This document shows, in pieces, positions 28,020 through 60,040 of a stretch of 64,000 nucleotides of DNA (its first letter is position 1; each line of letters starts with the position of its first letter). The translations under genes were made by a program, and so were the position numbers. Location: the NCBI RefSeq assembly GCF_029338515.1, contig NZ_CP119988.1, positions 248,001-312,000 of the forward strand. Direction: 5' to 3'. The notes under the pieces are model-generated. The model was not told where the DNA came from. It searched no databases and saw only the letters and a list, made by a program, of their open reading frames with translations. The stretch comes from Haloglomus litoreum (GTDB taxonomy: Archaea; Halobacteriota; Halobacteria; Halobacteriales; Haloarculaceae).

Positions 28020-28265
28020 TCAGGCCGATTCCGTCTCCGCGACGGCCTCGTCCGCGTCCTCGCTCAGCGTCCGGTCACGGGCGCCCCGGATCTCGGCCTC
28101 GACGGCCTGACGGCCCTTCTGGAATTCGCCCATCGCCTCCCCGGAGGACCGGGCCAGCTTCGGCAACCGGTCCGCGCCGAACAGGAGGACGACAAGCAGG
28201 AGGATGACCAGCATCTCGGGACCGCCCGGCAGGCCGAAGAACAGTGGTGTGGTGCTCTCGAACAT
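28020..28265 (-). CDS. tatA: Twin-arginine translocase subunit TatA
   Basis: This 81-residue protein has the TatA/Hcf106 layout. The short N-terminal helix (FFGLPGGPEMLVILLLVVLLFGADRLPKLARS) contains the FG hinge and is followed by an amphipathic helix and an acidic tail. TatA oligomers form the pathway for folded proteins, the main export route in haloarchaea. The ATG at 28265 is chosen because the helix starts within ten residues. Many Tat-type substrates lie nearby at 30-39 kb. Confidence 0.92.
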   Translation of the reverse strand: MFESTTPLFFGLPGGPEMLVILLLVVLLFGADRLPKLARSSGEAMGEFQKGRQAVEAEIRGARDRTLSEDADEAVAETESA

Positions 28266-28375: not shown

Positions 28376-29062
28376 TCAGTCCGGCGGGCGGAGCGATTCC
28401 GACAGGTCGGTCGGGTCGCCGCCACCGAGCCGGTCCGAACGCTGGACGTACGTGTGGACCACGCCGACGGCCAGCCACCCGGCCGCGATGATCCCGGCGT
28501 ACGCGATGTCCGGGAGGAGGGTGAACGGGTAGACCCCCAGCGCGACCGCCGTCACGAGCGCCGTGGAGAAGCTCCCCAGCGCGAGGGAGAGCTCGCCCCA
28601 CGACAGGTCCCGCTCCGGGACGATCTCCAGGTAGATGTCGAACGCCTCGACGGCCTCGGTCAACTCCAGGGTCCCGCGGTCGCGGTCGTAGTCGATGACG
28701 CCGACCTCGGCCATCTTCGGCAGGTGGGTCTGGTGGAGCGCCGTGTAGACCCGCTTGCGCTCCTTCGGGGTCACCGCGGCGAGTTTGATGCCGTTCTCCC
28801 AGGCGGCGACCTGCTCGGAGAGGTCTCGGACTGTGACCCGCTCGCCGGTCGCCTTGAGATGGTGGAGGACGTAGCGGCGGCGCTCGTTGCTCAGCACCTC
28901 GAAGACCGTCTCGGGAGCGATGGTGACAGCCTTCCCCTCGCTGGCGGTGGCGACCGCTGTGGCCGTGCCGCCGTCGCTTGCCGGCGCGTCACCGTTCGCC
29001 ATCGGCGCGGCGCGGCCGGTCTCTCCCCCCTCCTTGTCAGTCGGTATGTTGTCACTACTCAT
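28376..29062 (-). CDS. DUF7344 winged-helix protein with two membrane helices
   Basis: This 228-residue protein has a disordered N-terminus, then a wHTH domain typical of haloarchaeal DUF7344 (FEVLSNERRRYVLHHLKATGERVTVRDLSEQVAAWEN, KRVYTALHQTHLPKMAEVGVIDYDRDRGTLELT). Two membrane helices follow near the C-terminus (LSLALGSFSTALVTAVALGVYPF and IAYAGIIAAGWLAVGVVH). It may act as a membrane-bound transcription factor. It is a paralogue of the protein at 29172-29729, with the same direction and a 109-bp gap containing a TATA-like TTTTTATCC. Confidence 0.82.
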   Translation of the reverse strand: MSSDNIPTDKEGGETGRAAPMANGDAPASDGGTATAVATASEGKAVTIAPETVFEVLSNERRRYVLHHLKATGERVTVRDLSEQVAAWENGIKLAAVTPKERKRVYTALHQTHLPKMAEVGVIDYDRDRGTLELTEAVEAFDIYLEIVPERDLSWGELSLALGSFSTALVTAVALGVYPFTLLPDIAYAGIIAAGWLAVGVVHTYVQRSDRLGGGDPTDLSESLRPPD

Positions 29063-29171: not shown

Positions 29172-29729
29172 CTACTGGCCCTGGAACCGGCGGTGGGCCC
29201 GCCGACGCTCCACCCAGAGCTCGTAGACGCCCGAGACGGCGAAGGCCACGAGCGCGATCGTCGCCGGCACCAGCGGGTCCACCGCCGACAGCACCGGGAC
29301 GCCGGCCAGCGACGCCACCACGAGGAACAGCCCGATGATACCCAGCGCGCGGTAGTACCCTCCCCAGGTGATGCCCAGGCCCGTCAGGACCCGGGTGTGA
29401 CTGGTGACCTGGCGTGCGGCGGGGAGCGCCCGGACCCGCTTGTGCTCGACGTCGTAGTCGACGAGGCCGAGCGCGGCCAGCTTCGGCAGGTGCGTCCCGA
29501 CCAGCGAGTTGTAGACGCTGAGGCGGACGTCCCGGGGCGCCGGCCGGACGCCCGTCTCGGCGGTCGCGACGGCCTCCGAGAGGGCCTGCACGCTGGTCTC
29601 GCCCTCCCGTCGGAGGTACGACAGCGCCGCCGACCGCCGCGCGCTGCTCAACACTTCGTGGATCTCGTGGGCCGGGAGTCGACGGCGGAAGCGCCCCACG
29701 AACCCGCCTGCGTCGGTCGTGTCGGTCAC
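29172..29729 (-). CDS. DUF7344 winged-helix protein with two membrane helices (paralogue)
   Basis: This 185-residue protein has the same plan as its neighbour: a wHTH (HEVLSSARRSAALSYLRREGETSVQALSEAVATAE, SVYNSLVGTHLPKLAALGLVDYDVEHKRV) and two membrane segments (YYRALGIIGLFLVVASLAGV and LVPATIALVAFAVSGVYELWV). The start is GTG at 29729, overlapped by the TGA of a short upstream frame. The pair sits directly upstream of the surface-protein locus in divergent orientation and could regulate it, by position. Confidence 0.8.
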   Translation of the reverse strand: MTDTTDAGGFVGRFRRRLPAHEIHEVLSSARRSAALSYLRREGETSVQALSEAVATAETGVRPAPRDVRLSVYNSLVGTHLPKLAALGLVDYDVEHKRVRALPAARQVTSHTRVLTGLGITWGGYYRALGIIGLFLVVASLAGVPVLSAVDPLVPATIALVAFAVSGVYELWVERRRAHRRFQGQ

Positions 29730-30162: not shown

Positions 30163-31074
30163 ATGAGCAACAACGACGACATCGGAAACGACTCACAGCT
30201 GTACAACCTCTCGCGCCGGAAGGTCCTCGCGGGCATGGGCGCGGTCGGTCTCGCCTCCGTCGGTGCCGGGCTGGGCACCTCCGCCCTGTTCAGCGACACG
30301 GAGAGCTTCACGAACAACTCCATCACCGCGGGTACGCTCGACATGCTGGTGACCGCCACCGCGGTCGCAGCTAGCCCGTACTGGGAGGGGCAGGTCAGCC
30401 TCCCGCAGAGCATCACCTCCGAGGAGGCCGAGGCAGCCGAGTTCTCCCTCACCGTGGACGACGTGAAGCCCGGCGACTGGGGCATCATCTGCTTCGAGAT
30501 CGAGAACGAGACCAACCCCGGCTACGTCCAGGTTTCGGTGCCCGGCGGCGTCACCAACGATGGTGGCGAACACCCCGAGCCCGAGCAGGATGTCGACGCG
30601 GGTAACAACGGTGACCTCGGCGACGCCATGCTGGCCTCCATCTGGCAGAGCTACACGGACAACGACAACGGCAAGGACGACCTCGCTGGGCTCGATGGGT
30701 GGACCAACGACGAGGGCGGCGTCTTCGTCGGCAAGCCGTACGCGGATGTCGCCCAGGACGACTTCACGGCGGGCGACTACGGCCAGACCGTGGAGACCGA
30801 CATGGACTACCCGACGCTCAACGAGCTCGGGACCTTCCTGAGCACCGGCCAGACTCTCAAGGACAACGCCGGGAACCTGCTCCAGGTCGGCTACGACGAC
30901 GAGACCGGCGAGCCGGCAGTCGGCGACGGCAAGGTGCGGTTCTGCCTCCTGCTGGAGATCCCGGCCGCGGTCGGCAACGAGATTCAGGGCGACTCCGTCA
31001 CCTTCGATCTGGTCTTCGAGACCGAGCAGGTCCGAAACAACCCGACCCCGTTCGACGGCGACCCGAACAACTGA
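30163..31074 (+). CDS. TasA-like surface protein with SipW-type signal (cassette 1, gene A)
   Basis: This 303-residue protein has a twin-arginine leader (LSRRKVLAGMGAVGLASVGAGLG). The SipW-dependent sequence GTSALFSDTESFTNNSITAGTLD follows directly. The mature part is a beta-rich, Asp/Gly-rich domain with DVKPGDWGIICFEIEN and a C-terminal block (CLLLEIPAAVGNEIQGDSVTFDLVFETEQVRNN) shared by all TasA-like proteins here. TasA/camelysin relatives polymerise into surface fibres. ATG at 30163 follows a GGGGAG site. A close copy of its leader and first 55 residues begins the gene at 33381. Confidence 0.85.
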   Translation: MSNNDDIGNDSQLYNLSRRKVLAGMGAVGLASVGAGLGTSALFSDTESFTNNSITAGTLDMLVTATAVAASPYWEGQVSLPQSITSEEAEAAEFSLTVDDVKPGDWGIICFEIENETNPGYVQVSVPGGVTNDGGEHPEPEQDVDAGNNGDLGDAMLASIWQSYTDNDNGKDDLAGLDGWTNDEGGVFVGKPYADVAQDDFTAGDYGQTVETDMDYPTLNELGTFLSTGQTLKDNAGNLLQVGYDDETGEPAVGDGKVRFCLLLEIPAAVGNEIQGDSVTFDLVFETEQVRNNPTPFDGDPNN

Positions 31075-31081
31075 TCGGGAA

Positions 31082-31099
31082 CGGCGACCCCGGTCGCCG
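31082..31099. terminator. Hairpin after the first TasA-like gene
   Basis: CGGCGACC-CC-GGTCGCCG is a perfect 8-bp-arm hairpin starting seven bases past the stop codon. Another, CCCCC-GGT-GGGGG, lies in the same 137-bp spacer. No T-run follows, so they may be RNA-processing or stability elements that set different expression of the two genes, rather than strict terminators. Confidence 0.4.
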
Positions 31100-31210
31100 C
31101 TAGCTGACGCTGTGCAACGCGCGTGACCTGCGCGCCGGGCCGCTCGCCCGGCACTCTCCCCCGGTGGGGGTAACCAACTCACACCACCCGGGGGCCACCA
31201 CAACACATCA

Positions 31211-32974
31211 ATGACTCAAGACAACCAACTGATCAACCTGACCCGGCGCCAGATGCTCATCGGCGTCGGCGCTGTCGGCCTCGCGTCCGCGGGCGCCGGA
31301 CTCGGTACGTCCGCGCTGTTCCGCGACACCGAGAGCTTCACCGGCAACTCCATCGTGGCCGGCGAGCTCGACCTCCTGGTCGACTGGCAGCAGCACTACT
31401 CCTACTGGGACGGCGGGATGAAGCACGTCTTCGTCAACGCCCACCCGGACCACGACGGCGACGGCGAGCAGTCCATCGAGGCCGACAACGACGCGGGGCA
31501 GCTCAAGTACAGCGACTTCCCGGACCCGGAGGACGAGGACAGCAACGGCGCGAACATCCCGACGCTGGGCTGTGACGACATCCCGCCGCTCTCGGAGGCG
31601 GACTACGGCGTCGACCCCATCACGGGAGAGCGCAACGAGACGCTCGTCCAGCTCCGCGACGTGAAGCCGGGCGACATGGGCGAGATCACCTTCTCGCTGC
31701 ACCTCTGTGACAACCCGGGCTACATCTGGATGCAGGCCGGCAACGTCAGCCAGGACGGCGGTACCGCCGCCGAGCCCGAGCTGATCGTCGACCCCGACAA
31801 CCTCGGCGACCTCGGCCAGGCCATCCAGGCCACCCTCTGGTACGACGAGGACTGCGACAACGTCTACGACCCCGAAGCGCCCGCGGACATCATGCTGACG
31901 CTGGACTTCTCCGGCTCCATGCTGTACCGGCGCTTCGGCGGCGTCGTCAGCGAGGACTCCATCGACGTGGACGGCGACGGCAGTGCCGACTACCCAGAGA
32001 CGACCAAGATCGACCTCGTCGAGAAGGGCGCCCGACAGTTCATCGAGTACCTGCAGGCCCAGGGCGCTGACGTGACCGTCGGCGTGGCCTACTTCGACGG
32101 GGACCAGCAGGGCGACACCGCTCCCCGCGTGGGGATCCTCGAGCCCCTGACGGCCAACCTCTCGGCGGTCGACACCGCGCTGTCGGGCCTGCGACAGAAG
32201 CTCGCCAACGTCGTGAGTGGCGGCGAGCCCACGACGCCGTTCGACGGCGACGGCGACCCCGACCCGAGCGCGGGCGGTGGCATCGCGGAGGGCACCTTCA
32301 TCGGTGAGGGTGTCGACGCGGCGCAGCTCGAGCTCACCAACAACGGTCGTGGCGGCGTCCGCCCGGCGAACCTCGTCCTCTCGGACGGCGAGTCGTTCAA
32401 CGGCCAGGGGAGCGCGCAGTTCTCCGACCCGACCGAGTCGGCGGACAACGCCCGTGCGCCCCTGGGGTCACCCGTCCACACGGGCCCGAACTCGCCTCCG
32501 GCCTCCATCGCGACGGACGTGTTCACCATCTCCGTCGGCAGCGCGAACGACGCGGTGCTCCAGGCCATGGCTGGCCCCGCCAACGGTGCCGGCGGGGCGG
32601 CGGCGTTCTTCAACGACGTCGACGACCCGCTGAACATCCCGACGGTGTTCGGGAACATCGCGGCGCAGTTCGTCGGCGAGAAGGTCATCATGGAGGACTC
32701 GCTCGCCAACATCCTCGCGGAGCTGGCCGACGGGAACGGCATCCCGCTCGACGGCAACCGCGCGACGATCTACGACGAACTGAGCGACCCCGCGACCGAC
32801 CCGGACCGCGACGCGTTCCGCGGCGACGGCGTGATGCACTGCATCGCGCTCGAGTGGGAGCTCCCGGCCGACGTCGGCAACGAAGTGCAGGGTGACACCA
32901 TCGGCTTCGACCTGGGCTTCTACACCGAGCAGGAGCGCAACAACGACGGCAGCGGTCCGGCGCTCCCCGCCTGA
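31211..32974 (+). CDS. TasA-like surface protein with inserted von Willebrand A domain (cassette 1, gene B)
   Basis: This 587-residue protein starts with LTRRQMLIGVGAVGLASAGAGLG and the SipW sequence GTSALFRDTESFTGNSIVAGELD. A TasA-like part (VKPGDMGEITFSLHLCDNPGYIWM) runs to about residue 220. Then a VWA domain begins (ADIMLTLDFSGSM, MIDAS Asp232-Ser236; later IVLSDG-like LVLSDGESFN). The chain returns to the TasA-type ending (ELPADVGNEVQGDTIGFDLGFYTEQERNN). The VWA therefore sits inside the TasA fold. VWA domains bind ligands through a metal ion, suggesting adhesion at the cell surface. Confidence 0.85.
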   Translation: MTQDNQLINLTRRQMLIGVGAVGLASAGAGLGTSALFRDTESFTGNSIVAGELDLLVDWQQHYSYWDGGMKHVFVNAHPDHDGDGEQSIEADNDAGQLKYSDFPDPEDEDSNGANIPTLGCDDIPPLSEADYGVDPITGERNETLVQLRDVKPGDMGEITFSLHLCDNPGYIWMQAGNVSQDGGTAAEPELIVDPDNLGDLGQAIQATLWYDEDCDNVYDPEAPADIMLTLDFSGSMLYRRFGGVVSEDSIDVDGDGSADYPETTKIDLVEKGARQFIEYLQAQGADVTVGVAYFDGDQQGDTAPRVGILEPLTANLSAVDTALSGLRQKLANVVSGGEPTTPFDGDGDPDPSAGGGIAEGTFIGEGVDAAQLELTNNGRGGVRPANLVLSDGESFNGQGSAQFSDPTESADNARAPLGSPVHTGPNSPPASIATDVFTISVGSANDAVLQAMAGPANGAGGAAAFFNDVDDPLNIPTVFGNIAAQFVGEKVIMEDSLANILAELADGNGIPLDGNRATIYDELSDPATDPDRDAFRGDGVMHCIALEWELPADVGNEVQGDTIGFDLGFYTEQERNNDGSGPALPA

Positions 32975-33021
32975 TCTGATCCCGTCGGCGGGGACGGCCC
33001 CCGCACGCTGACTCACCCGGA

Positions 33022-33061
33022 GACGGTTCAGGGCCCCGTGCCCCGGCGGTTCGACTCCGCC
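33022..33061 (+). repeat. T-arm-like hairpin repeat, copy 1
   Basis: GACGGTTC at 33022-33029 is followed by GGCGG-TTCGACT-CCGCC at 33045-33061. The seven-base loop TTCGACT fits the tRNA T-loop consensus TTCRANY, but no acceptor, D or anticodon stems surround it. The same pair occurs at 34848-34893, 36780-36810 and 36958-36998, always in spacers of the surface-protein locus. Confidence 0.65.
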
Positions 33062-33201
33062 GCCCGGCGTTCCCCGCTGCACAGGCGCCAGCGAGGACCC
33101 ACGACACGAGGAGGCACGCGCTCTTTTCGGTGCGAGACGGCCACCGGTACCGTACTTCGAACTCCGGGGCGATGAGCCGTCTCGAGTGCGTTCACCGTTC
33201 C

Positions 33202-33217
33202 GGTAATCCGACCCTAC
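33202..33217 (+). promoter_or_regulatory. GGTAAT...TAC motif before cassette 2
   Basis: GGTAATCCGACCCTAC differs at three positions from GGTAATGAGACCGTAC at 37206-37221. It lies 164 bp upstream of the start codon of the second TasA-like gene. A regulator of the whole locus is the simplest reading, but no binder is known. Confidence 0.5.
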
Positions 33218-33380
33218 AACCGGCAACGACGGCTCAACGGGCCATTGGATGCAACGCGGGCGGTATCGGGTGCTCGGTAGTCGATCCATGTCTAATGGGG
33301 TACCCTACCGAGAGAGGAACATCCCGATGAGGGCTCGCCGCCGCGATGTGCTGCGAGACCCCGAACGGGGAGAGAAACCA

Positions 33381-34766
33381 ATGAGCAACAACGACGACAT
33401 CAACCCCGAATCGACCCTGTACACACTCTCGCGCCGGAAGGTCCTCGCGGGCATGGGCGCGGTCGGGCTCGCCTCGGCGGGCGCCGGTCTCGGCACCTCC
33501 GCGCTGTTCAGCGACACCGAGTCGTTCAACAACAACGTCCTGACGGCCGGGACGCTCAACCTGTTGGTCGACTACTACAGCTACTGGGACCAGGACATCC
33601 GCGGGATGGGCACCGTAAGCGGCACCGCCGACGGCCCGGCCGTCACCGCGATGCTGGACGACATGAAGCCCGGGGACGAGGGGCTGCTGGCCTTCTGTTT
33701 CCGAATCGACGACAACCCGGCCTACATCTGGCTCTGTGGCGAACTCGTCGAGAACGCGGAGAACGGCCAGAACGAGGCCGAGGAGAACCACTCCGACGAC
33801 ACCTCGCTCGACATCGGTGAGCTCGCCGACAGCATCGTGGTCGACGTCGACTACTGCGATGTCGCCGAGGACCTCGACGCGAACGGAACCGACGGGTTCG
33901 ATCCCGGCGACGTGAGCAAGATCGCGGACGTGTTCGACGGCACGCTCGCGGAGTTCCTCGCCCTCGTCAACACCGGCGTTCCCCTCGACGGTGACGCGAG
34001 CGGCGGCGTCCTCGCGCCCGGCGATCAGGCCCCCTTCGACGGCCTCCGGGAGGAGGAGATCGACAACCCGTGCCTCTGCATCGAGTGGGAGATCCCCATC
34101 GAGGTGGGCAACGAGATCCAGTCCGACTCGCTGGTGTTCGACCTGGAGTTCTACGCCGAGCAGGCCCGCAACAACGACGGCACGAACAACCCCTGCGCCC
34201 CGAGCATCACGACCCGCACGGGCGAGGGCTTCGCCAAGCAGCAGGAGTTCGGCGGGGGCGTCGAGGCCTCCTTCGCACGCGGGCGCTACGGGAACAACGC
34301 TCCCCCGGCACCCTTCGAGGTCGGTATCGGCCTCCCGGGGAGCCCGACGCCGAACTGGCAGGACCAGGCGAACTACGTCTGGGACAGTGGCGTGACGGTC
34401 CCGTTCAGCTACTCGCAGGACGGCGCGGGGAACGGCAGCTTCACCCTGGACGGCGTGATGGTGAGCAGCGGCGCACTCCCCCCCGCCAACGGCAAGGTCG
34501 CCATCACGACGAAGGCGGACGAGGCCACCATCGACGTGGCGAACCTCGTGCTGGAGCTGGACGGGACCCCCGTCTCCCTTTCCGGCCCGGACGCGATCTC
34601 GGCCTCCAACGACGGCAGCGGCCGAGAGGTCACCTACCTGGTCTTCGACACCAACGTGGGCGACCTCGCGAACGGCTTCGAGGTCAGCGGCGACGTGACG
34701 GTCACGCTGCAGGGTGACTACTCCGGCAGCGACGAGGACGTGGCCTTCGACATCAGTGTCGAGTGA
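33381..34766 (+). CDS. TasA-like surface protein with C-terminal choice-of-anchor-type domain (cassette 2, gene A)
   Basis: This 461-residue protein has the same leader as the 30163 gene: MSNNDDI..., LSRRKVLAGMGAVGLASAGAGLG, then GTSALFSDTESFNNNVLTAGTLN. Its TasA-like part ends at about residue 270 (CLCIEWEIPIEVGNEIQSDSLVFDLEFYAEQARNN). A second, all-beta domain of about 190 residues follows (from ITTRTGEGFAKQQEFGGG), resembling choice-of-anchor/surface beta-sandwich modules. It is exported and probably part of a fibre or its decoration. It corresponds to gene A of cassette 1, which lacks the C-terminal domain. Confidence 0.82.
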   Translation: MSNNDDINPESTLYTLSRRKVLAGMGAVGLASAGAGLGTSALFSDTESFNNNVLTAGTLNLLVDYYSYWDQDIRGMGTVSGTADGPAVTAMLDDMKPGDEGLLAFCFRIDDNPAYIWLCGELVENAENGQNEAEENHSDDTSLDIGELADSIVVDVDYCDVAEDLDANGTDGFDPGDVSKIADVFDGTLAEFLALVNTGVPLDGDASGGVLAPGDQAPFDGLREEEIDNPCLCIEWEIPIEVGNEIQSDSLVFDLEFYAEQARNNDGTNNPCAPSITTRTGEGFAKQQEFGGGVEASFARGRYGNNAPPAPFEVGIGLPGSPTPNWQDQANYVWDSGVTVPFSYSQDGAGNGSFTLDGVMVSSGALPPANGKVAITTKADEATIDVANLVLELDGTPVSLSGPDAISASNDGSGREVTYLVFDTNVGDLANGFEVSGDVTVTLQGDYSGSDEDVAFDISVE

Positions 34767-34847
34767 GTGAGACGACACTCCCCGAGGACTGCGATCCTCC
34801 TCTCGCAGCCGGCCGCGACACGCCCTGTGCGCGGCCACGCCCGGCCT

Positions 34848-34893
34848 GACGGTTCACGCGGACGACGGGTCCGCGCGGCGGTTCGACTCCGCC
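34848..34893 (+). repeat. T-arm-like hairpin repeat, copy 2
   Basis: GACGGTTC (34848-34855) and GGCGGTTCGACTCCGCC (34877-34893) lie in the 174-bp spacer between the two genes of cassette 2, ending 47 bases before the next start codon. The flank after the hairpin (GGTCGGG) matches that of copy 3. Confidence 0.65.
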
Positions 34894-34940
34894 GGTCGGG
34901 CCTCCCCCCGACCCGATGAGAGGAAGGGGACCCCCACACC

Positions 34941-36683
34941 ATGCCCGACAACGACAACCAACTGATCAACCTGACCCGGCGCCAGATGCTCGCCGGAGTG
35001 GGTGCGGTCGGCCTCGCCTCGGCGGGGGCCGGACTCGGTACGTCCGCGCTGTTCCGCGACACCGAGAGCTTCACCGGCAACTCCATCGTGGCCGGCGAGC
35101 TCGACCTCCTGGTCGACTGGCAGCAGCACTACGAGTACTTCGACGGCGGGATGAAGCACGTCTTCGTCAACGCCCACCCGGACCACGACGGCGACGGCGA
35201 GCAGTCCATCGAGGCCGACAACGACGCGGGGCAGCTCAAGTACAGCGACTTCCCGGACCCGAACGACCCCGAGAGCATCGGCGCGAACATCCCGGGCCTG
35301 GGATGTGGGAACATCCCGCCGCTCACCGAGGCCGCGTTCGGCGAGGACCCGTTCACCGGCGAGTCGATGGACACGCTCGTCCAGCTCCGCGACGTGAAGC
35401 CGGGCGACATGGGCGAGATCACCTTCTCGCTGCACCTCTGTGACAACCCGGGCTACATCTGGATGCAGGCCGGCAACGTCAGCCAGGACGGCGGTACCGC
35501 CACCGAGCCGGAGCTGATCGACGATCCCGACAACCTCGGGACCCTCGGCGACGCCATCCAGGCCACCCTCTGGTACGACGAGGACTGCGACAACGTCTAC
35601 GACCCCGCCGAGCCGGCGGATATCATGCTGACGCTTGACTTCTCCGGCTCCATGCTGTACCGGCGGTTCGGCGGCGTCGTCAGCGAAGCCCCGATCCAGA
35701 TGAACGGCGACAGCTTCAACGAGACGACGAAGATCGATCTCGTCGAGCTGGGCGTCCTGGAGTTCGTCGACTTCCTGCAGGCCCAGAACGCCGACGTGAA
35801 GGTCGGCGTCGCCTACTTCGACGGCAGCCAGAGCGACGACCCCGCCGGCACCTCCCGGACGGGGATCCTCCAGCCGATGACGACCGACCTCTCCCAGATC
35901 ACCGCCGCAGTGGGTAATCTCCGGCAGAAGCTCGCCAACGTGGTCAGCGGGGACTGGCCGACCGACCCGCTCGACGGCGACGGCGACCCGGACCCCGACA
36001 ACGGTGCCGGTATCGCCGAGGGGACCTACATCGGCGAGGGTGTCAACGCCGCGCAGACCGAACTGGCCAACGAGGGCCGCGCGGGCGCCTCGAAGTCGAA
36101 CATCGTCCTCTCTGACGGCCAGAGCTTCAACGGCCAGTCCAACAACCAGTTCATCTCTCCGATCGACGCGGCCGCCGACGCCCGGCTCGGTGCCGGGGAC
36201 GGCGGGAACGACCCGGCGACGGACCTCTACACCATCTCCGTCGGCGAGGCCGACGACGCGACGCTCCTCTCGATGGCCGGCGCCGCAGGGACGGCCGTCG
36301 GCAGCGACAACGCGTACTTCGCCGATGTCGACGATCCGAACAACATCCCCGTGGTCTTCGGCAACCTCGCGGCCCGCTTCGGCGGCGAGGAGATCATCAT
36401 CCAGGACACCCTGGCGAACGTCCTCGCGGAGCTGGCGGACGGGAACGGCATCCCGCTCGACGGCAACCGCGGGACGCTGTACGACGAACTCGAGGAGCCG
36501 GCCAACGACCCGGACCGCGACGCCTACCCCGCCAGCAACGGGTTCATGCACTGTGTCGCGCTCAAGTGGGAGCTCCCGGCCGACGTCGGCAACGAAGTGC
36601 AGGGTGACACCATCGGCTTCGACCTGGGCTTCTACACCGAGCAGGAGCGCAACAACGACGGCAGCGGTCCGGCGCCCGCCTGA
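34941..36683 (+). CDS. TasA-like surface protein with inserted von Willebrand A domain (cassette 2, gene B)
   Basis: This 580-residue protein is a close paralogue of the 31211 protein. The leader (LTRRQMLAGVGAVGLASAGAGLG) and SipW sequence (GTSALFRDTESFTGNS) are the same, and so is the ending (ELPADVGNEVQGDTIGFDLGFYTEQERNN). The central VWA domain (DFSGSM, MIDAS Asp233) is more divergent. Its start and end are nearly identical at DNA level to the paralogue (for example 35035-35270 against 31311-31546), a sign of recent duplication or gene conversion. It is probably an adhesive subunit of the fibre. Confidence 0.85.
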   Translation: MPDNDNQLINLTRRQMLAGVGAVGLASAGAGLGTSALFRDTESFTGNSIVAGELDLLVDWQQHYEYFDGGMKHVFVNAHPDHDGDGEQSIEADNDAGQLKYSDFPDPNDPESIGANIPGLGCGNIPPLTEAAFGEDPFTGESMDTLVQLRDVKPGDMGEITFSLHLCDNPGYIWMQAGNVSQDGGTATEPELIDDPDNLGTLGDAIQATLWYDEDCDNVYDPAEPADIMLTLDFSGSMLYRRFGGVVSEAPIQMNGDSFNETTKIDLVELGVLEFVDFLQAQNADVKVGVAYFDGSQSDDPAGTSRTGILQPMTTDLSQITAAVGNLRQKLANVVSGDWPTDPLDGDGDPDPDNGAGIAEGTYIGEGVNAAQTELANEGRAGASKSNIVLSDGQSFNGQSNNQFISPIDAAADARLGAGDGGNDPATDLYTISVGEADDATLLSMAGAAGTAVGSDNAYFADVDDPNNIPVVFGNLAARFGGEEIIIQDTLANVLAELADGNGIPLDGNRGTLYDELEEPANDPDRDAYPASNGFMHCVALKWELPADVGNEVQGDTIGFDLGFYTEQERNNDGSGPAPA

Positions 36684-36779
36684 GACCCACGCCACGCGGT
36701 GGCGACCCCGAGGACCTCGGGATCGCCCAGCCCGCACCTCCCGTGAGAGAGACCGGGGGGCGCGGGGACACACCCGGCG

Positions 36780-36810
36780 GACGGTTCCACCACGGCGGTT
36801 CGACTCCGCC
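36780..36810 (+). repeat. T-arm-like hairpin repeat, copy 3
   Basis: GACGGTTC (36780-36787) and GGCGGTTCGACTCCGCC (36794-36810) sit in the first part of the long spacer after cassette 2. Only six bases separate the two parts, against 14 to 21 in the others. Confidence 0.6.
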
Positions 36811-36957
36811 GGTCGGGTCTCGCTTCGACATCCTCTGGCGGAAGGGATACACCGTGGCCGACGGACAGACGCCCTCGACGCGACGCAGGTTCGTCGTCTG
36901 TGTGCGGCTGGAACCTGCCCTGCTCCTGAAGCGACGGACAGCGTCCCCCCACCGAGC

Positions 36958-36998
36958 GACGGTTCGCGGCCCTCGTGCCCCGGCGGCTCGACTCCGCC
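36958..36998 (+). repeat. T-arm-like hairpin repeat, copy 4
   Basis: GACGGTTC (36958-36965) and GGCGGCTCGACTCCGCC (36982-36998). The loop has C instead of T at one position, and the five-bp stem is kept. The sequence between the two parts (GCGGCCCTCGTGCCCC) resembles that of copy 1. Confidence 0.6.
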
Positions 36999-37205
36999 AT
37001 CCCGGTATTCCTCGGTCCGTCATCGCGAGCGTGCTGGGTTGACGGTCATCTCCGCATCCGTGGTGGGTTCGGCGCCGACACCGACACTGGTTGGTGGGCT
37101 GGACAACCCGCGGTCCGTCGCACTCCTGGACGGCTTCCCCGTGTCGCGCCCCGGCCACCCGATTCACGGGCCGGATGAACGGTCCTGAACGATCCGCGGA
37201 ACCGT

Positions 37206-37241
37206 GGTAATGAGACCGTACCGCCGGTAATCAGACTGTAC
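37206..37241 (+). promoter_or_regulatory. Two direct copies of the GGTAAT...GTAC motif before the SipW operon
   Basis: GGTAATGAGACCGTAC (37206-37221) and GGTAATCAGACTGTAC (37226-37241) are spaced exactly 20 bp apart, two helical turns, so bound dimers would face the same side. They end 94 bp before the first start codon of the operon. Related copies are at 29911-29926 (inverted) and 33202-33217. Confidence 0.6.
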
Positions 37242-37335
37242 GCGACCCATACCTATGCCTTCCTCAAGCGAAGAGGGGATGTCGACCGGGCACTGCCCGG
37301 CCCCTCGCGACCGTCGCGGGGACAAGTAACACAGT

Positions 37336-38163
37336 ATGACACATCTAACCCGACGCCAACTACTCGCCGCAGCCGGCGTCGCCGGAGTAGGCACTGGGCT
37401 CGCCGGCGCGGGACTGGCCCGCGCGACGGCCCGAGACCCGCCCTACACGCGGTACACCTATGCCGCGCCCGGTGACACCGACGAGCGGCGCCTCCGCGTC
37501 GCGTGGTACGAGACCTACACGACCGACGGCACCGAGACCTTCGTCGAGAGCACGAACAGCTCCGGCGAGACCGACCGGACCACGGTCTTCGATCCCGCGA
37601 GCGAGCCGACCTACGTGAACGACCCTGGCCCGGTCATCAGCCTGCCGAACGCCCTCCCGGGCGACTCCGGCGTGCTGGTCGTCGGGCTGGAGGCCCAGCC
37701 GGTCGACGTCGACGACGAGGGCGTCGACGTCTGGCTCCAGGTGGGACTGACAGAGAACGCCGAGAACGGCGTCAACGAGCCCGAGTCCCTCGCAGCGGGC
37801 GAGGACGACCCGCTCGGCCCCGACAGCGGCGACGCCGACTCGGGCGAGCTGGCCGACGCCATCGAGATCCGCGTCTGGAAGGACGGCGGCTTCATGACCG
37901 GCTGTGACGGGAACTACGACTCCCTCTCCGAGACCAGCCTCGCGAACGACTCCCTGGCGGCCGTGAGCTCGACCGACCCCCTCGCCGACGGCGAGCTGGT
38001 CGTCGAGTGCCTCCCGCAGGGGAGTGCCCGCTGCGTGGGTTTCCGCTGGGAACTCCCCGAGGAGACGGGGAACCACATCCAGGGTGACGGCGTCAGCTTC
38101 GACCTGCGGTTCCACGGGCAGTCCTGTGGCGCGGAGAACCCGTTCGCCGGAGGGTCGCAATGA
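37336..38163 (+). CDS. Tat-exported TasA-like surface protein (SipW operon, gene 1)
   Basis: This 275-residue protein has a twin-arginine leader (LTRRQLLAAAGVAGVGTGLAGAGLARA). It lacks the FSDTES sequence of the other proteins here. The mature part has VDVWLQVGLTENAENGVNE and a C-terminal RCVGFRWELPEETGNHIQGDGVSFDLRFHGQSC, which fits the TasA-like ending; four cysteines could form disulfides. It opens the operon, and its TGA overlaps the next ATG (ATGA), so the products are made together. It may be a base or cap subunit. Confidence 0.78.
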   Translation: MTHLTRRQLLAAAGVAGVGTGLAGAGLARATARDPPYTRYTYAAPGDTDERRLRVAWYETYTTDGTETFVESTNSSGETDRTTVFDPASEPTYVNDPGPVISLPNALPGDSGVLVVGLEAQPVDVDDEGVDVWLQVGLTENAENGVNEPESLAAGEDDPLGPDSGDADSGELADAIEIRVWKDGGFMTGCDGNYDSLSETSLANDSLAAVSSTDPLADGELVVECLPQGSARCVGFRWELPEETGNHIQGDGVSFDLRFHGQSCGAENPFAGGSQ

Positions 38164-39323
38164 CCCAGCCGCGCGCGGGCATCGAGGACGAGCGTGCGCT
38201 GGCCGGTATGAGCCGGCGGCAGCTGCTCGCGGCGATGACGGCGGTCGGCGCGACCGGCGGCTTCGTCGGCGTCTCGACCGGCGCCAGCCTGTTCGACCGC
38301 GAGCGCCTCGGCGGGCGGTTCGTGGCCGGCGTCGTGGACCTCGGCATCCTGCACGCCGTGAACGACGGCCCCGAGCAGTACACCGACGGGAGTACCGTCT
38401 CGCTCGACCTGGGCGAGCTGGAGCCCGGCAGCGACAACGGCGGCCACGCCGACCTGCGCCTCCTGCTCCCCGAGACGGGGGACCCGGCGTCGCCGAACAA
38501 CCCGGCCTACCCCTGGTTCCGCCCCTCGTGTATCGACACGTCGGGCGGGCTCGTCGACGACCTCCGGGTGACGCTGAAGTACGTCGACTGCGCCACCGGT
38601 GACGTGGGTGCGGTCCTGTTCCCGTGGGGCTCGCTCCGCGAGTTCGTCGAGACGTTCCACGAGGGGTTCGCCCTCGACGGCCGGGCCCGACCGAACCGCC
38701 AGCCCGGGAACCAGGCGTGCCTGGACGATTCGCTCTGCCTCCGGCTCGACTACTACCTCGTGAGCGACTTCGAGGGCAAGGGCGACGTGCGGGTCGACGT
38801 CGACTTCGTCGGCGTCCAGTGTCGCAACCACACGGGCGAGGAGAACCCGTTCGCCGGGTCGCCCGGGCGGCTCTGCGACGCTCCCGACTACCACGGTGTC
38901 AGCTTCATCGAGGTCTGGGCCGACGTCGACGGCACCTGCACGAAGCTCGGGAAGCTGGAGCTCGACGACAACTACACCGCGAACTGTGGCACCGAGCTCG
39001 ACGTGTCCGGCAACGGCGACACGGAGCCCATCGGCGAGAACTACATCGTCGAGGGCACCTACGACCTCCCGGTCGACGACGACTGTGAGGACACGGGCTA
39101 CGACCTCCGCGTCACCGACACCGTGACGAAGACCGAGGAGGGGACGACGGAAGTCGTCGCCGTCGCGTTCGAGCTGCTGAACGGCGACGGAACCGCCGGC
39201 CCGGACCTCTGCAAGGTCGTCGTCAAGGGCGGCAGGGGCGGCGGCGAGGTCGTCTACGACGACCCGTCCGACTTCACCGACAACGCCACGAACGGGCCGC
39301 TGTACGCCCAGGAGGAGATCTGA
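38160..39323 (+). CDS. Tat-exported surface protein (SipW operon, gene 2)
   Basis: This 387-residue protein has a Tat leader (MSRRQLLAAMTAVGATGGFVG) starting at about residue 17. The following LFDRERLGGRFVAGVVDLG is a variant of the SipW-type start. The body is Asp-rich with eight or more cysteines (CIDTSGG, CLDDSLCLRLDYY, CRNHTGEENPFAG). A second beta-rich part follows from about residue 240. ENPFAG recurs in the gene 1 protein. It overlaps its neighbours by 4 and 1 bases. The role is probably structural, at the cell surface. Confidence 0.75.
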   Translation: MTQPRAGIEDERALAGMSRRQLLAAMTAVGATGGFVGVSTGASLFDRERLGGRFVAGVVDLGILHAVNDGPEQYTDGSTVSLDLGELEPGSDNGGHADLRLLLPETGDPASPNNPAYPWFRPSCIDTSGGLVDDLRVTLKYVDCATGDVGAVLFPWGSLREFVETFHEGFALDGRARPNRQPGNQACLDDSLCLRLDYYLVSDFEGKGDVRVDVDFVGVQCRNHTGEENPFAGSPGRLCDAPDYHGVSFIEVWADVDGTCTKLGKLELDDNYTANCGTELDVSGNGDTEPIGENYIVEGTYDLPVDDDCEDTGYDLRVTDTVTKTEEGTTEVVAVAFELLNGDGTAGPDLCKVVVKGGRGGGEVVYDDPSDFTDNATNGPLYAQEEI

Positions 39324-40357
39324 TGACCGCCGAGGGCACGGCGGCCGTCAACCGGGCGAACCGCGCACTCGTGAGTGCGCTGGTGCTCGTGCTGGTGCTG
39401 TCGGTGGTCGCGCCGTTCGCCGTGTTCGGCGTCCCGCAACTGATCGGCGCCGACCGGAGCTACGTCGTCCTCTCGGGGTCGATGGAGCCGTACATGTCCG
39501 CCGGCGACGCGGTCATCGTCGCCGCGGGCCCGGCCGCGAGTATCCGCGAGGGCGACGTCATCACGTACCAGCGCGGTGGCGACATCCCGACCACCCACCG
39601 GGTCATCGAGCGCGTGACCGACGAACAGGGGGTCGCCTTCCGGACGATGGGTGACGCCAACGAGGACCCCGACCCCGCGCTCGTCCGACCCGGCAGCGTC
39701 GTCGGGGAGGTCGTCCTGGTCATCCCGTACATCGGGTACGTGGTCCAGTTCGCCAACACCCCCATCGGCATCGCGTCGCTGGTGGTCGTCCCCATCGGCC
39801 TGCTGGTGATCTCGGAGCTCTGGCGCTACGTGGCCTCCCGGCGCCGCCGGAAGGCACCGACCGCCCCCCGACCCGCCGTCCGGCGGGTCGCCGAGGCGGA
39901 GCCCGCCGACGAGGCGGACGATTCCCGAGAGCCGACGCCACGGCCCCGGGCGACGTCGCAGGCGACGACCGCCGACACCGCGCCTGAGCCCCGGCGGACC
40001 GCGCCGGCCCCCCGGTCGGCGACGGCGAGCGGACCCGCCAGCGATGGCGCGTCCCAGCCCGTCTACGGCGTGAAGACGCTGGACCTCGGGCTCACGTTCC
40101 TGGTCCTCGTCGTGCTGGCGGCCTACAGCGGCTGGATGCTGTACAACGAGATCCGCGTCGAGTCCGCGATGGTGCTGGCGGGGGCCGTGATGGCCCTGCT
40201 GCTGCTCGCCGCGACCTGGCTGCTGGCGGCGCGTGCCGCCCGCGGCGGCCGGCGTGAGACCGCGGTGAACAGTTCGACGACCGACCGCCCCGGCGGTACG
40301 AGCGCCCCCCCGTTGCGCCCGGGATCCGAGCGGGGACAGGAGACAACCGATGACTGA
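39323..40357 (+). CDS. SipW-like signal peptidase I (archaeal/ER type)
   Basis: This 344-residue membrane protein carries the signal-peptidase catalytic sites: SGSMEPYM with Ser53, THRVIE with His92, and GDANEDPD with Asp111. That is the Ser-His-Asp set of the ER/archaeal type to which bacterial SipW belongs. An N-terminal helix (residues 16-40) and a second one after residue 125 anchor it. A disordered Pro/Arg/Ala linker and two more C-terminal helices follow, an unusual extension. SipW cleaves TasA-like precursors, and here the substrates are encoded on both sides. Confidence 0.9.
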   Translation: MTAEGTAAVNRANRALVSALVLVLVLSVVAPFAVFGVPQLIGADRSYVVLSGSMEPYMSAGDAVIVAAGPAASIREGDVITYQRGGDIPTTHRVIERVTDEQGVAFRTMGDANEDPDPALVRPGSVVGEVVLVIPYIGYVVQFANTPIGIASLVVVPIGLLVISELWRYVASRRRRKAPTAPRPAVRRVAEAEPADEADDSREPTPRPRATSQATTADTAPEPRRTAPAPRSATASGPASDGASQPVYGVKTLDLGLTFLVLVVLAAYSGWMLYNEIRVESAMVLAGAVMALLLLAATWLLAARAARGGRRETAVNSSTTDRPGGTSAPPLRPGSERGQETTDD

Positions 40358-40667
40358 GACACGAACGCGGAGGACGCTGCTGGTGCTGCTGGTGACCACG
40401 TTCCTCGTCGCCGCCGGAATCGGCGGCGGCGTGGCGACCGTCGCCACCCTCAGCGACACCGAGACGGTGAGTATCACGGCGAGTGCGGACGTACGGCCCC
40501 AGGGACCGCCGGGGCCGCCGGGGCCGCCGGGGCCGCCGGGGCCGTCGGCTGAGACGGGGACGGAGACACCGATAGAAACGGCGATATCGGCGGAGCCGGA
40601 GCCGGAGACACCGACCGAGCCGGAGCCGGAGACACCGACCGAGACGGAGAGTCAGGGGACCGAGTAG
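40350..40667 (+). CDS. Collagen-like Gly-Pro-Pro surface protein with SipW-type leader
   Basis: This 105-residue protein has a leader with hydrophobic segment TLLVLLVTTFLVAAGIGGGVATVATLSDTETVS, whose SDTE matches the SipW cleavage pattern. A collagen-like run follows at residues 52-66 (four GPP triplets then GPS), then a tail with two copies of PEPETPTE. Five triplets are too few for a stable free triple helix, so it may trimerise on another support or act as a rigid spacer. The repeat is a 9-bp tandem in DNA, so length variation between strains is likely. Confidence 0.75.
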   Translation: MTETRTRRTLLVLLVTTFLVAAGIGGGVATVATLSDTETVSITASADVRPQGPPGPPGPPGPPGPSAETGTETPIETAISAEPEPETPTEPEPETPTETESQGTE

Positions 40668-40669
40668 TG

Positions 40670-40939
40670 ATGAACGTCCTGACCCTCATGGTACCGTACC
40701 GTGGCCGCTCGCCGCCCCGTGATGCCGAGAACCTGGACGGCCGGTCGGCGAGCGACGTGCCGCCGGGCCGGAGTGGGAAGCGACGGGACGGTGACCGCCG
40801 GTCCGGAATCCGTCCCCCACGCTTCCTCCCGGGCTTCGTCCCCGGTGGCTGGAAGCGCAACGTCGTGGTGGGGCTGGGCTACCTCCTCGGGGCGCTGGCG
40901 TTCCTCGGAGTGCTCCGGTTCGTGATCGAACTCTTCTAG
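40670..40939 (+). CDS. Small tail-anchored membrane protein (last gene of SipW operon)
   Basis: This 89-residue protein has a basic, disordered N-terminal half (PYRGRSPPRD..., RSGKRRDGDRRSGIRPPRF) and one C-terminal membrane helix (NVVVGLGYLLGALAFLGVLRFVI). It starts two bases after the collagen-like gene stop; a GTG three bases earlier is also possible. The family is unknown. Its position suggests a membrane platform or accessory for export of the surface proteins. Confidence 0.7.
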   Translation: MNVLTLMVPYRGRSPPRDAENLDGRSASDVPPGRSGKRRDGDRRSGIRPPRFLPGFVPGGWKRNVVVGLGYLLGALAFLGVLRFVIELF

Positions 40940-51802: not shown

Positions 51803-52413
51803 GGCCGGGGGTGTGACTGCGGGCGGGTAGTGCCTTCCGGTCGCGGCGAGGCGGTGGCGGCCCCCTTCCGACGGGTGCGAATCACTCAGCCGGGGAATCG
51901 TATCGTTGCCCGCCCGGCGAGTCTCCCTGCAAGTTCAAATTGGAGGGCACAGCTATACCCCCTGGTGATGGCCACAGATTCGCTGTCCGTGTCCGTCGAC
52001 CCTCATCCGGACAGTCCCGAAACGGGGCTATCGCTTTCGGCGGCAGCGCTTTCGAGTGACTGTTACCTCGAGGGTGAGACTCCCGAACGACAGACCACGC
52101 TGCTCCACGGGAGGTGTGTGCAGTGCGCGAAGGGTAGGCCCGGGTTCTGCTATGTCCATCCACGTAGTCCGGCACCGCGGGAGCTGCTGGCCCGCCTCCC
52201 GGAGCATCGGCTTGGGGATGTCGTCTCTCGATTTCAAACGGAGTCGCCAGCTCAAGCGGCTGGCTCTCTCGCTGGCCGGCGAGTCGGTATCGACCCCTTC
52301 GCAGGCGTTGCCCTCGATATCGATGGCGGCGAGTTGCTCCGACTAGATGCCACCAACAGCGGTGACCGTGGCCACGATAAGAAGTTAACACCCTCATCAC
52401 CCAATGAGGCCCC
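51803..52413. other. Unclear stretch between nfo and the accessory island
   Basis: About 610 bp without a confident gene. A plus-strand frame from ATG 51968 to 52417 would encode 149 residues (MATDSLSVSVDPHPDSPETG...) with a CxxC (CVQCAKGRPGFC). It has poorer codon bias than neighbours and no family, so I give it low weight. It could be a decayed gene. Confidence 0.35.
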
Positions 52414-52560
52414 ATGACCGACTTCGCCTCGCTTGAGTCCCAAGACGTCCGGGAGTACTGGGCGCACGAGGAGCGCAGCGAGTCGCAACCGGTCGAGCCG
52501 CTGGGGGCTTTCAACACCGACCGCTACGGACCAGAAGCCGCTCGACACGAAACAAGGCCC
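52414..52560 (+). pseudogene. Truncated gene start (haloarchaeal endonuclease-like N-terminus)
   Basis: The frame from ATG 52414 starts MTDFASLESQDVREYWAHEE. Openings like this, an xDxREYWxHE phrase, are typical of larger haloarchaeal DUF91/nuclease-like proteins. After about 20 residues the pattern is lost and the frame runs into the end of the convergent nuclease gene. It looks like the remnant of a gene cut off by insertion of the next one. The assignment rests on one short motif. Confidence 0.3.
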
Positions 52561-52561
52561 G

Positions 52562-53563
52562 TCAGTCCGAGCCCTCCAGCGCAGTCGTGGCAGCAGGCTC
52601 AGCCGTCAGCGCGGCGAACGAGACGTAGCGATGGCCCTGCACGAACGCCACGGTCTGGTCGGAGTCACTCGCGGTCTTGTCGTTCGGAATCGGCCCCTCG
52701 AGCTCGACCCCGTCCGCCAGAAAGAGCACCTTCTCTGCCTCCCCGTATCGCTCGGAGTCCGCCGCACGCAACTCCGCGACGACCTCTTGCAGTCGAGTCT
52801 CCTGAGCAGCCGACAACGCATCGCACTCCGCGACCCCCTCGGCAGTCAACACGACGCGCTCGACCGAGCCCGTCACTCGCGGGACGACAGGCTTGATCTC
52901 ACCGTCGGTGTAGAAGGCGAGATGCGCGACGGGTTTGAACGAGCGATGCGGCTGGCAGAAGTAGAGCCCGTACTGCTCGTACTCGGGCCACGCCTTCCGA
53001 GCCGCCACGACCAGCACCCGGTCGGACTGCCCACTCACTAGGTCTTCGTCGTAGAGGAAGCGACTGAGCTCACGCAACAGGAACGCTTCGCGCTCCGTGG
53101 GGACGGACAGGCTGGCCTCAGCGCTTCCCACGTCGCGGTCGAGCACCGCCTCGATGGTACCGACCACCGCATCGAAGTTCGCCCACACGACGCGGTCATC
53201 GTCGAGCGCCGCGACCGCCTCGGGCCGGTCGGGATCCGGGGTCAGCACGATCAGTCGACGGAGCTCCGCCGACCCCTCGTCGAGTACCTCTAGGTGGGCC
53301 GCCAACTGGTCCTGATCAACGGCCCCGCGACGCGTTTTCGTCTCGAACCAGAGCGCGGTCGAACTCGTGATGGCGGCATCAGGGACCGACGCGACGCCCG
53401 TCACCTGATTGTCAAACGAGACCAGCGAGATGTCGGATTCGTCGATCAGTGCCTCCAGGATATCCTCCGCGAGCTGGTTGTTGATGTGTTGGAGGACAGC
53501 CATCAGCGTCGAGGTGACCCGGTTCTCGCCCTGGGTGTACGTCGAGAACAGTGGATTCGGCAT
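52562..53563 (-). CDS. Predicted PD-(D/E)XK nuclease-like protein
   Basis: This 333-residue protein has a nuclease-like core near the N-terminus. VPDAAITSSTALWFETKTRRGAVDQDQLAAHLE places Asp62 and Glu74-Thr75-Lys76 as the PD...ExK site, followed by a helix with Gln. The rest (REAFLLRELSRFLYDEDLV..., VLVVAARKAWPEYEQYGLYFCQPHRSFKPVAHLAFY) is a second domain I do not recognise. It probably cleaves DNA, perhaps as a defence protein. The ATG at 53563 is chosen; the frame is open upstream, with no homology. GC content is lower than in the core genome. Confidence 0.65.
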   Translation of the reverse strand: MPNPLFSTYTQGENRVTSTLMAVLQHINNQLAEDILEALIDESDISLVSFDNQVTGVASVPDAAITSSTALWFETKTRRGAVDQDQLAAHLEVLDEGSAELRRLIVLTPDPDRPEAVAALDDDRVVWANFDAVVGTIEAVLDRDVGSAEASLSVPTEREAFLLRELSRFLYDEDLVSGQSDRVLVVAARKAWPEYEQYGLYFCQPHRSFKPVAHLAFYTDGEIKPVVPRVTGSVERVVLTAEGVAECDALSAAQETRLQEVVAELRAADSERYGEAEKVLFLADGVELEGPIPNDKTASDSDQTVAFVQGHRYVSFAALTAEPAATTALEGSD

Positions 53564-53717
53564 GAGTGGGGTACAGAGAGACGGAGTAAAACACTCCGGG
53601 GGCAATGCTTTGCTCCTCTTGAAACGCTCAGAATACGAACTTATCCGATAAATAGAACATGGTTCTCCGCCCGCCAGTATGTTGATTCCGAAGGTTAGCG
53701 GAATTCCGAACCGAATC

Positions 53718-54227
53718 TTAGCATATTCTCTTGGAGATATCCAGAACTTCCCCTTCCAGCGACGGATAGTCATAATACTCGCTTTCGTCGCTTTCCTGCA
53801 GAGACTCGATGTACCGCTCTTTCAGATGGTTCAGAATCCGCCACATCTTCATCACGACTTCGTCGCGTTGCTCCTCAGCAACGGTAACGTAGATATCCTC
53901 CATCGCTCTGTTCCCACTGTTAGCCTTCGATGTACTTGTCTTAGGATCGTACTCTGAGAGGTGCTCCTCGGCATACGGCACGAGTTCGTGTGAAAGATTG
54001 TGCCTCCGTTTCTTGTCCTCTCCCTCTACATCGGGATAGTTGTCGAAGTAGCCAGCCACGCCAGGCAGGTTCGCGGCGATAATCAGGACGTCACCGTCAT
54101 CCAGATATTCTACCATGACAGCTGCATTCCGTATCTGCAGCGTAGACTGCTGGACTTCGTAAGGGAAGGTGTAGATCTCATCGACTTCGTCTCGTTTCCG
54201 GAACGAAATGCTTCGTGTGGATCCCAT
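53718..54227 (-). CDS. Unknown protein in the accessory island
   Basis: This 169-residue acidic protein is of no known family: MGSTRSISFRKRDEVDEIYTFPYEVQQSTLQIRNAAVMVEYLDDGDVLIIAANLP opens it, and a helical part ends it. Codon use is AT-richer than in the core genome. It is in the same direction as, and 75 bp downstream of, the gene at 54303, so the two probably form a unit. Confidence 0.6.
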   Translation of the reverse strand: MGSTRSISFRKRDEVDEIYTFPYEVQQSTLQIRNAAVMVEYLDDGDVLIIAANLPGVAGYFDNYPDVEGEDKKRRHNLSHELVPYAEEHLSEYDPKTSTSKANSGNRAMEDIYVTVAEEQRDEVVMKMWRILNHLKERYIESLQESDESEYYDYPSLEGEVLDISKRIC

Positions 54228-54302
54228 TCTACTGTTCCTCCTCCCGAGCTCCGTTCAGATTGTTCTCGTACTGTTCTTGTTCCCTGGTGTCGGTATGGTC
54301 TA

Positions 54303-55034: not shown

Positions 55035-55309
55035 CGACCCACCTGGTGACAGGTGGCCGGGTTGTAAAAGGAAATCCCATTTATGTAATATCGTCACCGG
55101 AATCCGATGACGAACTGGTCGGCTGGGTTAGACTGACGTTCGCAGTAAGCACATAGAGTTCATTATTGGCCGTTCATAGCAACTGCTGAGAGTGATGCTC
55201 GATTAGTGGCCGACTCGCGGAATAGGGCCAGTCACGCCCACGTCGAACGGTCATCGATTTGGAGGGCCCCCAGAGCCACCTTTTTCGACTATCCCTGATG
55301 TGAGTCGGT

Positions 55310-55774: not shown

Positions 55775-55835
55775 AGGAGGCGATTGGAATCCCCCTGTCC
55801 CCAGAAGCGATAGCACTCGCCCGAGAGCGACCACC

Positions 55836-59951: not shown

Positions 59952-60040
59952 GCTGTCTACAGCTATCCCGGCGGGAGTGAGCGACAGACCACGCCCTGCT
60001 GGACCAGTACTCCTGGCAGTCAAGTCGAGAGCGGAGCGAG

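Follow-up and report, generated by a model that had tools for sequence, protein, structure and literature searches.

A locus of TasA-like proteins and a SipW-type signal peptidase in Haloglomus litoreum: a candidate surface-fibre system of haloarchaea

What does a haloarchaeon build with a row of related exported proteins that are encoded together with a signal peptidase of their own? This question is raised by a locus of Haloglomus litoreum that lies in a stretch of 64,000 nucleotides, here called the window (bases 248001-312000 of the 4.70 Mb single-contig genome). Based on profile searches, structure prediction and comparison with related loci, the locus is read here as a system for fibres on the cell surface, of the same kind as TasA fibres or archaeal bundling pili and with swappable adhesion domains, in which the subunits would polymerise; we assign this reading a probability of about two in three. 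It is carried by the predicted fold of the subunit termed A, by residues that correspond to inter-subunit contacts of TasA, and by a gene order that is kept across haloarchaea.

Composition of the locus and relationship of its products to TasA

Nine open reading frames (ORFs) were detected by a gene caller at window positions 30163-40939, all at the coordinates first given in a preliminary description of this DNA. The last five overlap consecutively by 4, 1, 8 and 1 nucleotides, which confirms the five-gene overlapping operon with its own signal peptidase that had been proposed. The features are listed below, where Tat stands for twin-arginine translocation, MIDAS for metal-ion-dependent adhesion site and TM for transmembrane.

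30163-31074, + strand: A, a bare subunit of predicted TasA fold with a Tat-type RR signal, the SipW-type region ALFSDTES, a donor-strand segment and a KPGD proline motif
31211-32974, + strand: B, a subunit of the TasA superfamily into which a VWA domain is inserted
31871-32674, + strand: the VWA insert of B, with a complete MIDAS (DxSxS, T, D)
33381-34766, + strand: A', in which a choice-of-anchor W domain (about 34239-34757) stands C-terminal to a TasA-like core
34941-36683, + strand: B', the tandem paralogue of B, with a diverged VWA domain and nearly identical frame ends
37336-38163, + strand: gene 1 (g1), a Tat signal and a core of the TasA superfamily that lacks the F-x-D-x-E donor segment; a candidate end subunit that only accepts a strand
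38160-39323, + strand: gene 2 (g2), a Tat signal, a SipW-like LFDRE region, a TasA-superfamily core and an extra C-terminal domain
39323-40357, + strand: SipW, an archaeal or endoplasmic reticulum-type signal peptidase whose sequence includes a long hydrophilic stretch and, at the C-terminus, membrane helices
40350-40667, + strand: GPP protein, a signal or TM segment, then SDTETVSITASADV, which resembles a donor strand, and a tail of low complexity with GPP and PETPTE repeats
40667-40939, + strand: a small basic protein with a C-terminal TM helix, probably starting at the ATG at 40670

The relationship of these products to TasA was examined by profile comparison. The SipW-cognate signal model TIGR04088 of NCBIfam (cut-off 19 bits) was matched by A (31.9 bits), A' (28.8), B (22.4) and B' (22.3), as well as by 49 of 53 further relatives. 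The Pfam camelysin/TasA family PF12389 (cut-off 22.5 bits) was passed by A at 25.1 bits; A', B and B' remained below it (18.6, 15.3 and 11.8 bits) and have their core in common with A. No PF12389 match was obtained in Haloferax volcanii, which served as a control. The profile of A matched A' with an E-value of 7e-59, and the additional C-terminal domain of A' was identified as choice-of-anchor W (NF041928, E 6e-19). When g1 and g2 were compared to the TasA-like set by hhalign, both were aligned at 99.9% probability (E 4.6e-32 and 2.1e-32, respectively) over a region that included the C-terminal strands, with part of these scores owed to the Tat signal. Thus, of the exported TasA-like proteins previously counted as four, A, B, A' and B' were each upheld and the count was not, the number being six with g1 and g2 included.

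The structure of mature A was modelled with AF2 from 13 aligned sequences, at a mean predicted local distance difference test (pLDDT) value of 76 and a predicted TM-score (pTM) of 0.79. By Foldseek search of the PDB with this model, the TasA fibre entry 8aur was the sole match below an E-value of 0.001 (E 5.7e-4, probability 0.99). By a second structural aligner, the TasA entries 5of1, 5of2 and 8aur ranked first with Z-scores of 8.2, 8.1 and 8.0 and were superposed on the model with a root mean square deviation of 3.5-3.8 Å over 151-159 residues, compared to a Z-score of 5.5 for the next chain. Absence of a TasA-like fold from the mature protein had been taken beforehand as grounds for refutation; by both approaches the fold is present in the model, and A as modelled adopts the TasA fold. 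Residues 1-7 and 9-14 of the model, the would-be donor strand, were disordered (pLDDT below 50), as one would expect of an unpaired strand, although low confidence of this kind has other causes as well.

In TasA fibres, an N-terminal strand (residues 28-38) fills the next subunit (PMC9674648), and the inter-subunit contact that is most conserved, termed the 'proline box', is made by F29, Q232, F200 and P62 (PMC10151520). The predicted mature start of A reads L-F-S-D, with F2 conserved at 90% or more; its KPGD motif places an invariant proline at position 62; and Q248, within the final EQxRxN strand, is likewise invariant and is paired by hhalign with TasA Q232. Thus, TasA F29, P62 and Q232 have counterparts in A at the level of sequence correspondence, which is not proof of assembly. 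Similar motifs were common among the 236 TasA-like proteins of 73 loci (the window and 72 fetched loci, all haloarchaeal), with KPGD detected in 225 and an F-x-D type motif in 218.

A twin arginine was detected in 232 of the same 236 proteins, and the pattern S/T-R-R-x-hydrophobic-hydrophobic is present in A, B, g1 and g2. Based on these signals, the TasA-like proteins are probably exported by Tat, already folded. The peptidase of the locus was matched as an archaeal signal peptidase I above cut-off, scored 103.9 bits with TIGR02228 (cut-off 51.85) and 108.9 bits with NF046067, and was matched by the Bacillus SipW profile below the cut-off of that profile. Its Ser-His-Asp residues S53, H92 and D111 are invariant in 12 homologues. 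Judged from these catalytic residues and the matching signal family, SipW would cleave its substrates beside F-x-D-x-E, at the FSDTES/FRDTES sites proposed earlier.

Inserted domains and the genes that accompany the subunits

The relationship of B to A was traced through the sequence flanking its insert. The profile of A matched B in three pieces flanking an insert about 270 residues long (E 1e-25, 6e-15 and 9e-12), and the N-terminal halves of the two proteins were aligned by hhalign at 100% probability (E 7.5e-47). The frame of B is therefore tied to TasA by its sequence match to A, the TasA fold itself having been computed on A. Pfam VWA models matched both B and B', the latter above cut-off (PF00092, 25.6 bits compared to 23.8), and the MIDAS residues D, S, S, T and D were invariant in 12 aligned proteins. 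Structural neighbours of the B model (pLDDT 75) were VWA domains with Z-scores of 18-21, including PTMP1, Mfa5 and SpaC; the Foldseek list also held PitA, SpaC and RrgA. The VWA insert first described from the sequence is thus real, with a complete MIDAS and with pilus-tip adhesins among its neighbours.

The same insertion site was found to hold different domains in relatives of B. Inserts resembling VWA were the commonest, in divergent forms, and those of single relatives matched propeller-type (DUF4394/DUF6923) or beta-helix/NosD families. Relatives negative for VWA that carry small inserts often had about 175 extra C-terminal residues. With inserts so varied at one site, the TasA-like frame looks like a carrier of exchangeable domains.

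A mosaic was apparent when B was compared to B'. The two genes are sisters within Haloglomus (tree support 92). Near-identity, synonymous sites included, extends over codons 31-90 and 151-180 and over the final 16 codons, whereas 22-34% of the codons for shared residues differ within the VWA domain; DNA identity is about 94-100% at the frame ends and 69-79% in the VWA middle. The VWA domain is also less conserved than the frame between species. This pattern suggests gene conversion of the frame together with divergence of the VWA domain, and the B/B' pair is a duplication at the level of the genus whose ends are homogenised. The duplicated A/B cassettes proposed for this locus accordingly stand for B and B' and fall for A and A', since A' is a different subtype with an extra domain. 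Duplication of a cassette as the origin of the A, B, A', B' order is ruled out by this added domain and by other loci, which mix A, A' and B in many orders.

Of the genes that follow, g1 lacked F-x-D-x-E and the subsequent donor segment in 8 of 8 homologues and so might receive a strand but would have none to donate. LFDRE, the SipW-like region, was kept in g2 in an alignment of 11 homologues. The plan of the protein encoded at 40350, a TM segment followed by a donor-like motif and a low-complexity tail, was found at the same place in 72 homologous proteins. A strict donor-like xDx[EAG] after the TM segment was present in 39 of these 72 and resembles the AFHDI start of TapA, which is nearly the AFNDI of TasA; secretion of no more than residues 44-57 of TapA is enough for biofilm formation (PMC10151520). 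In light of these properties of TapA, a peptide of donor type that carries a flexible tail may plausibly, if speculatively, act as a starter or anchor. No profile named any of the proteins as a TapA homologue.

The tails of the 40350-type proteins consist mostly of T, S, N, P, E, D, G, Q and A in 66 of 72. A collagen-type GPP repeat was found in only one of the 72, that of the window, and relatives have TPTPAETP, NGNGN or D/E/T/N-rich sequence in its place. The Pfam Collagen model PF01391 scored 17.3 bits on the protein, below its cut-off of 27.2. The collagen-like subunit previously taken as a meaningful part of the locus is therefore not supported; a collagen-like functional element is ruled out, and the GPP tail is regarded as an incidental linker. 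For the small gene at 40667, a close homologue was detected at the same place in one further genome (G001), and similar tail-anchored ORFs follow the low-complexity gene at other loci.

Conservation of the locus across haloarchaea

The gene order was compared across the 73 loci, and it was found to be conserved. At least two TasA-like paralogues were present in all 73, at least one VWA protein in 65, a g1-type gene in 62, a g2-type gene in 64 and a same-strand SipW downstream in 65. A divergent DUF7344 gene lies directly upstream (within 1.2 kb) in 71 loci, a position that is far from random given that the H. litoreum genome has only 27 DUF7344 matches in its 4.7 Mb. With the order kept in dozens of genomes, chance is ruled out. 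The layout, at first described as not known, is instead the standard haloarchaeal one, and the search for the same gene order that had been suggested thus found it widely. About half of the good genomes sampled from the class (103 of 194), in 46 of 66 genera, contained relatives retrieved with the B alignment, TasA-like proteins without VWA included. Some copies of the locus are on large plasmids.

Linkage to the peptidase was examined in a sample of 59 genomes by TIGR02228 family search. Of 29 strong SipW genes, 27 had a B-type match at a distance of 10 kb or less. When scored by genome, 17 had both, 3 had B only, 1 had SipW only and 38 had neither (Fisher p 7e-11, a value that treats the genomes as independent though they are related). 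Lack of a conserved co-occurrence of substrates and peptidase had been named beforehand as grounds for refutation; the two were found together.

The locus extends to the left by two divergent DUF7344 genes and a TatA-like gene, as follows.

29172-29729, - strand: second DUF7344 protein, adjacent to A and divergent (PF24035, E 3.1e-22)
28376-29062, - strand: divergent DUF7344 protein, a predicted winged-helix regulator with membrane helices (PF24035, E 1.6e-33)
28020-28265, - strand: TatA-like translocase subunit (Pfam TatA_B_E, E 5e-14)

TatA-like genes were detected in 10 of the 73 loci. In several genera the gene stands just past the DUF7344 genes (window 28020-28265; L124:3684-3938 and L125:2549-2773 in two of the fetched loci), and annotated TatA/TatE genes were found beside homologous loci of Halorientalis marina and Haloarcula halophila (two annotated plasmids). 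The TatA-like gene is possibly a Tat component dedicated to the locus.

Related genes were also observed outside this arrangement. In the H. litoreum genome, a second, divergent locus (C1:3692000-3711500) encodes five TasA-like proteins, of which one or more have a clear VWA domain, along with a g2-type protein and SipW, and has a DUF7344 gene in divergent orientation, and an orphan A'-type gene of 658 residues with a SipW-type signal is located at about 3.44 Mb of C1 (L033:7840-9816) with no SipW nearby. Some haloarchaea have smaller loci (L017, L018 and L021) in which one or two proteins of about 190-240 residues with the same signal region are encoded no more than about 1 kb from a SipW gene, a layout that recalls Bacillus sipW-calY. 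Elsewhere in the window, the guanine-plus-cytosine fraction falls to 0.57-0.64 at 52000-60000, where an IS605 OrfB/Cas12f-like TnpB gene (57647-58882) is found; this is likely an inserted or mobile stretch. At 60041-63328, a ParA/MinD-type ATPase and, beside it, a protein of 727 residues with a weak, sub-threshold CHAT-protease match are encoded. A tRNA was the sole Rfam match in the window.

Interpretation and comparison with known systems

A working model for the proposed fibre can be outlined. The six TasA-superfamily proteins would be exported in folded form by Tat through their twin-arginine signals, and SipW would cut next to F-x-D-x-E and free an N-terminal beta-strand. Judging from the fold and the interface residues, the freed strand would fill the open sheet of the next subunit to give a donor-strand chain as in TasA. 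The shaft would be formed by A and A', the latter with its anchor-W domain, and the MIDAS-bearing VWA domains of B and B' would bind a ligand on a surface, a neighbouring cell or the matrix, at the tip or along the fibre. More speculatively, g1 may cap one end and the SDTE-containing protein after SipW may serve as a TapA-like starter or membrane anchor. The divergent DUF7344 genes, by their conserved position, probably regulate the locus. In its full form, with Tat-folded subunits, a donor strand licensed by SipW, the 40350 protein as a minimal donor-only starter or anchor, g1 as an acceptor-only cap, and VWA, propeller-like or beta-helix heads on a gene-converted constant frame, this model is tentative and is considered doubtful as a whole.

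Several observations weigh against a fibre. The Foldseek TM-scores of A with TasA are modest (0.35-0.39), and a Z-score of about 8 can be reached as best match by unrelated models, although here the TasA entries all stand apart. Direct hhalign comparison with TasA alone was weak (15.5%, and 0.8% in another comparison) and a sequence search of the PDB with the profile of A gave no TasA match, nor any match of weight, so that the family claim rests on the fold, PF12389, TIGR04088 and the motifs. Several loci are without a bare A-type protein, which affects the assignment of the shaft, and 8 of the 73 have no same-strand SipW in the stretch covered, some of them ending at a contig edge. The MIDAS is complete in 105 of 108 VWA-type relatives, but these were found with a VWA profile and the count is thus partly selected. 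In addition, no fibre, cleavage or binding experiments on these proteins were found in the literature.

In one alternative, the proteins act as monomeric surface adhesins, with the TasA-like part as a membrane-proximal or S-layer-associated platform, SipW needed only for maturation and the inserts binding singly. The swapping of domains at the insert site and the faster evolution of the VWA domain relative to the frame fit such a display platform, and the fibre is so far inferred rather than demonstrated. By contrast, conservation of residues that in TasA contact the neighbouring subunit, the presence of two or more paralogues at every locus and a bare subunit A that carries no cargo argue for assembly, and we consider monomeric adhesins unlikely. 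The peptidase could instead be an ordinary archaeal Sec11 in a general secretion cluster, its linkage without functional meaning; TIGR02228 does match lower-scoring signal peptidases in nearly all haloarchaea. The peptidases of these loci, however, form a separate high-scoring class (at least 85 bits compared to at most 75 for the others) that is encoded close to B-type genes and is almost never found in genomes without such proteins, which makes this explanation very improbable. Even less credence is given to secreted camelysin-type metallopeptidases. Such a function is suggested by the other name of PF12389, Peptidase_M73, and by the score of A above its cut-off, but HExxH was found in none of the proteins and the solved relative with that fold is the structural TasA fibre; Peptidase M73 function is ruled out by the missing motif.

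If the fibre reading holds, TasA-type fibres would be a common surface structure of haloarchaea, and it would have to be asked how Tat, a pathway for folded proteins, can supply the exposed strand on which such a fibre depends. Carriers in culture are Haloglomus halophilum and, in Halorubrum and Natronomonas, several species. Fibres of the TasA type are already known, together with archaeal relatives of them, as are VWA tip adhesins on other pili. The combination, with Tat-type signals, a multi-paralogue layout with DUF7344 and exchangeable inserts, is undescribed as far as the literature searched shows, the coverage of which is incomplete. Within the same incomplete coverage, no work was found that links SipW with Halobacteria or that describes haloarchaeal TasA-type loci or DUF7344.

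In databases, the proteins are labelled 'SipW-dependent-type signal peptide-containing protein', 'signal peptidase I' or 'hypothetical protein'; TIGR04088 thus already gives them a name, and is silent on fold, system, gene order and function. The closest known systems are compared as follows. The tapA-sipW-tasA operon of B. subtilis, together with sipW-calY of B. cereus, shares with the haloarchaeal locus the TasA-type fold, as predicted here for A, the SipW-type signal region and a linked archaeal-type signal peptidase, and residues F29, P62 and Q232 of TasA have their apparent counterparts. The haloarchaeal locus differs in its twin-arginine signals, compared to Sec-type signals in Bacillus, in its six TasA-like paralogues, some with an inserted VWA or added C-terminal domain, in having a short protein with a donor-like segment but no TapA homologue named by any profile, and in DUF7344 genes as opposed to SinR-type control. 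The archaeal bundling pili of Pyrobaculum calidifontis (AbpA) are described, in papers that cite the original work, as a TasA-related archaeal donor-strand fibre, with no mention there of VWA-bearing subunits; the absence of AbpA from the fold-search lists is no evidence against kinship. The sortase-pilus proteins RrgA, SpaC and PitA and the type V protein Mfa5 have a MIDAS-bearing VWA domain in or on a pilus subunit and belong to the top structural matches of B. The likeness is confined to the VWA domain, the carrier domain of B being TasA-like, and with no LPxTG sorting signal in the sequences of B or B' these proteins would resemble the sortase-pilus adhesins in working and not in membership. 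Taken together, a correct fibre reading would mean that one haloarchaeal system joins the donor-strand fibre with the VWA pilus-tip adhesin, designs otherwise known separately.

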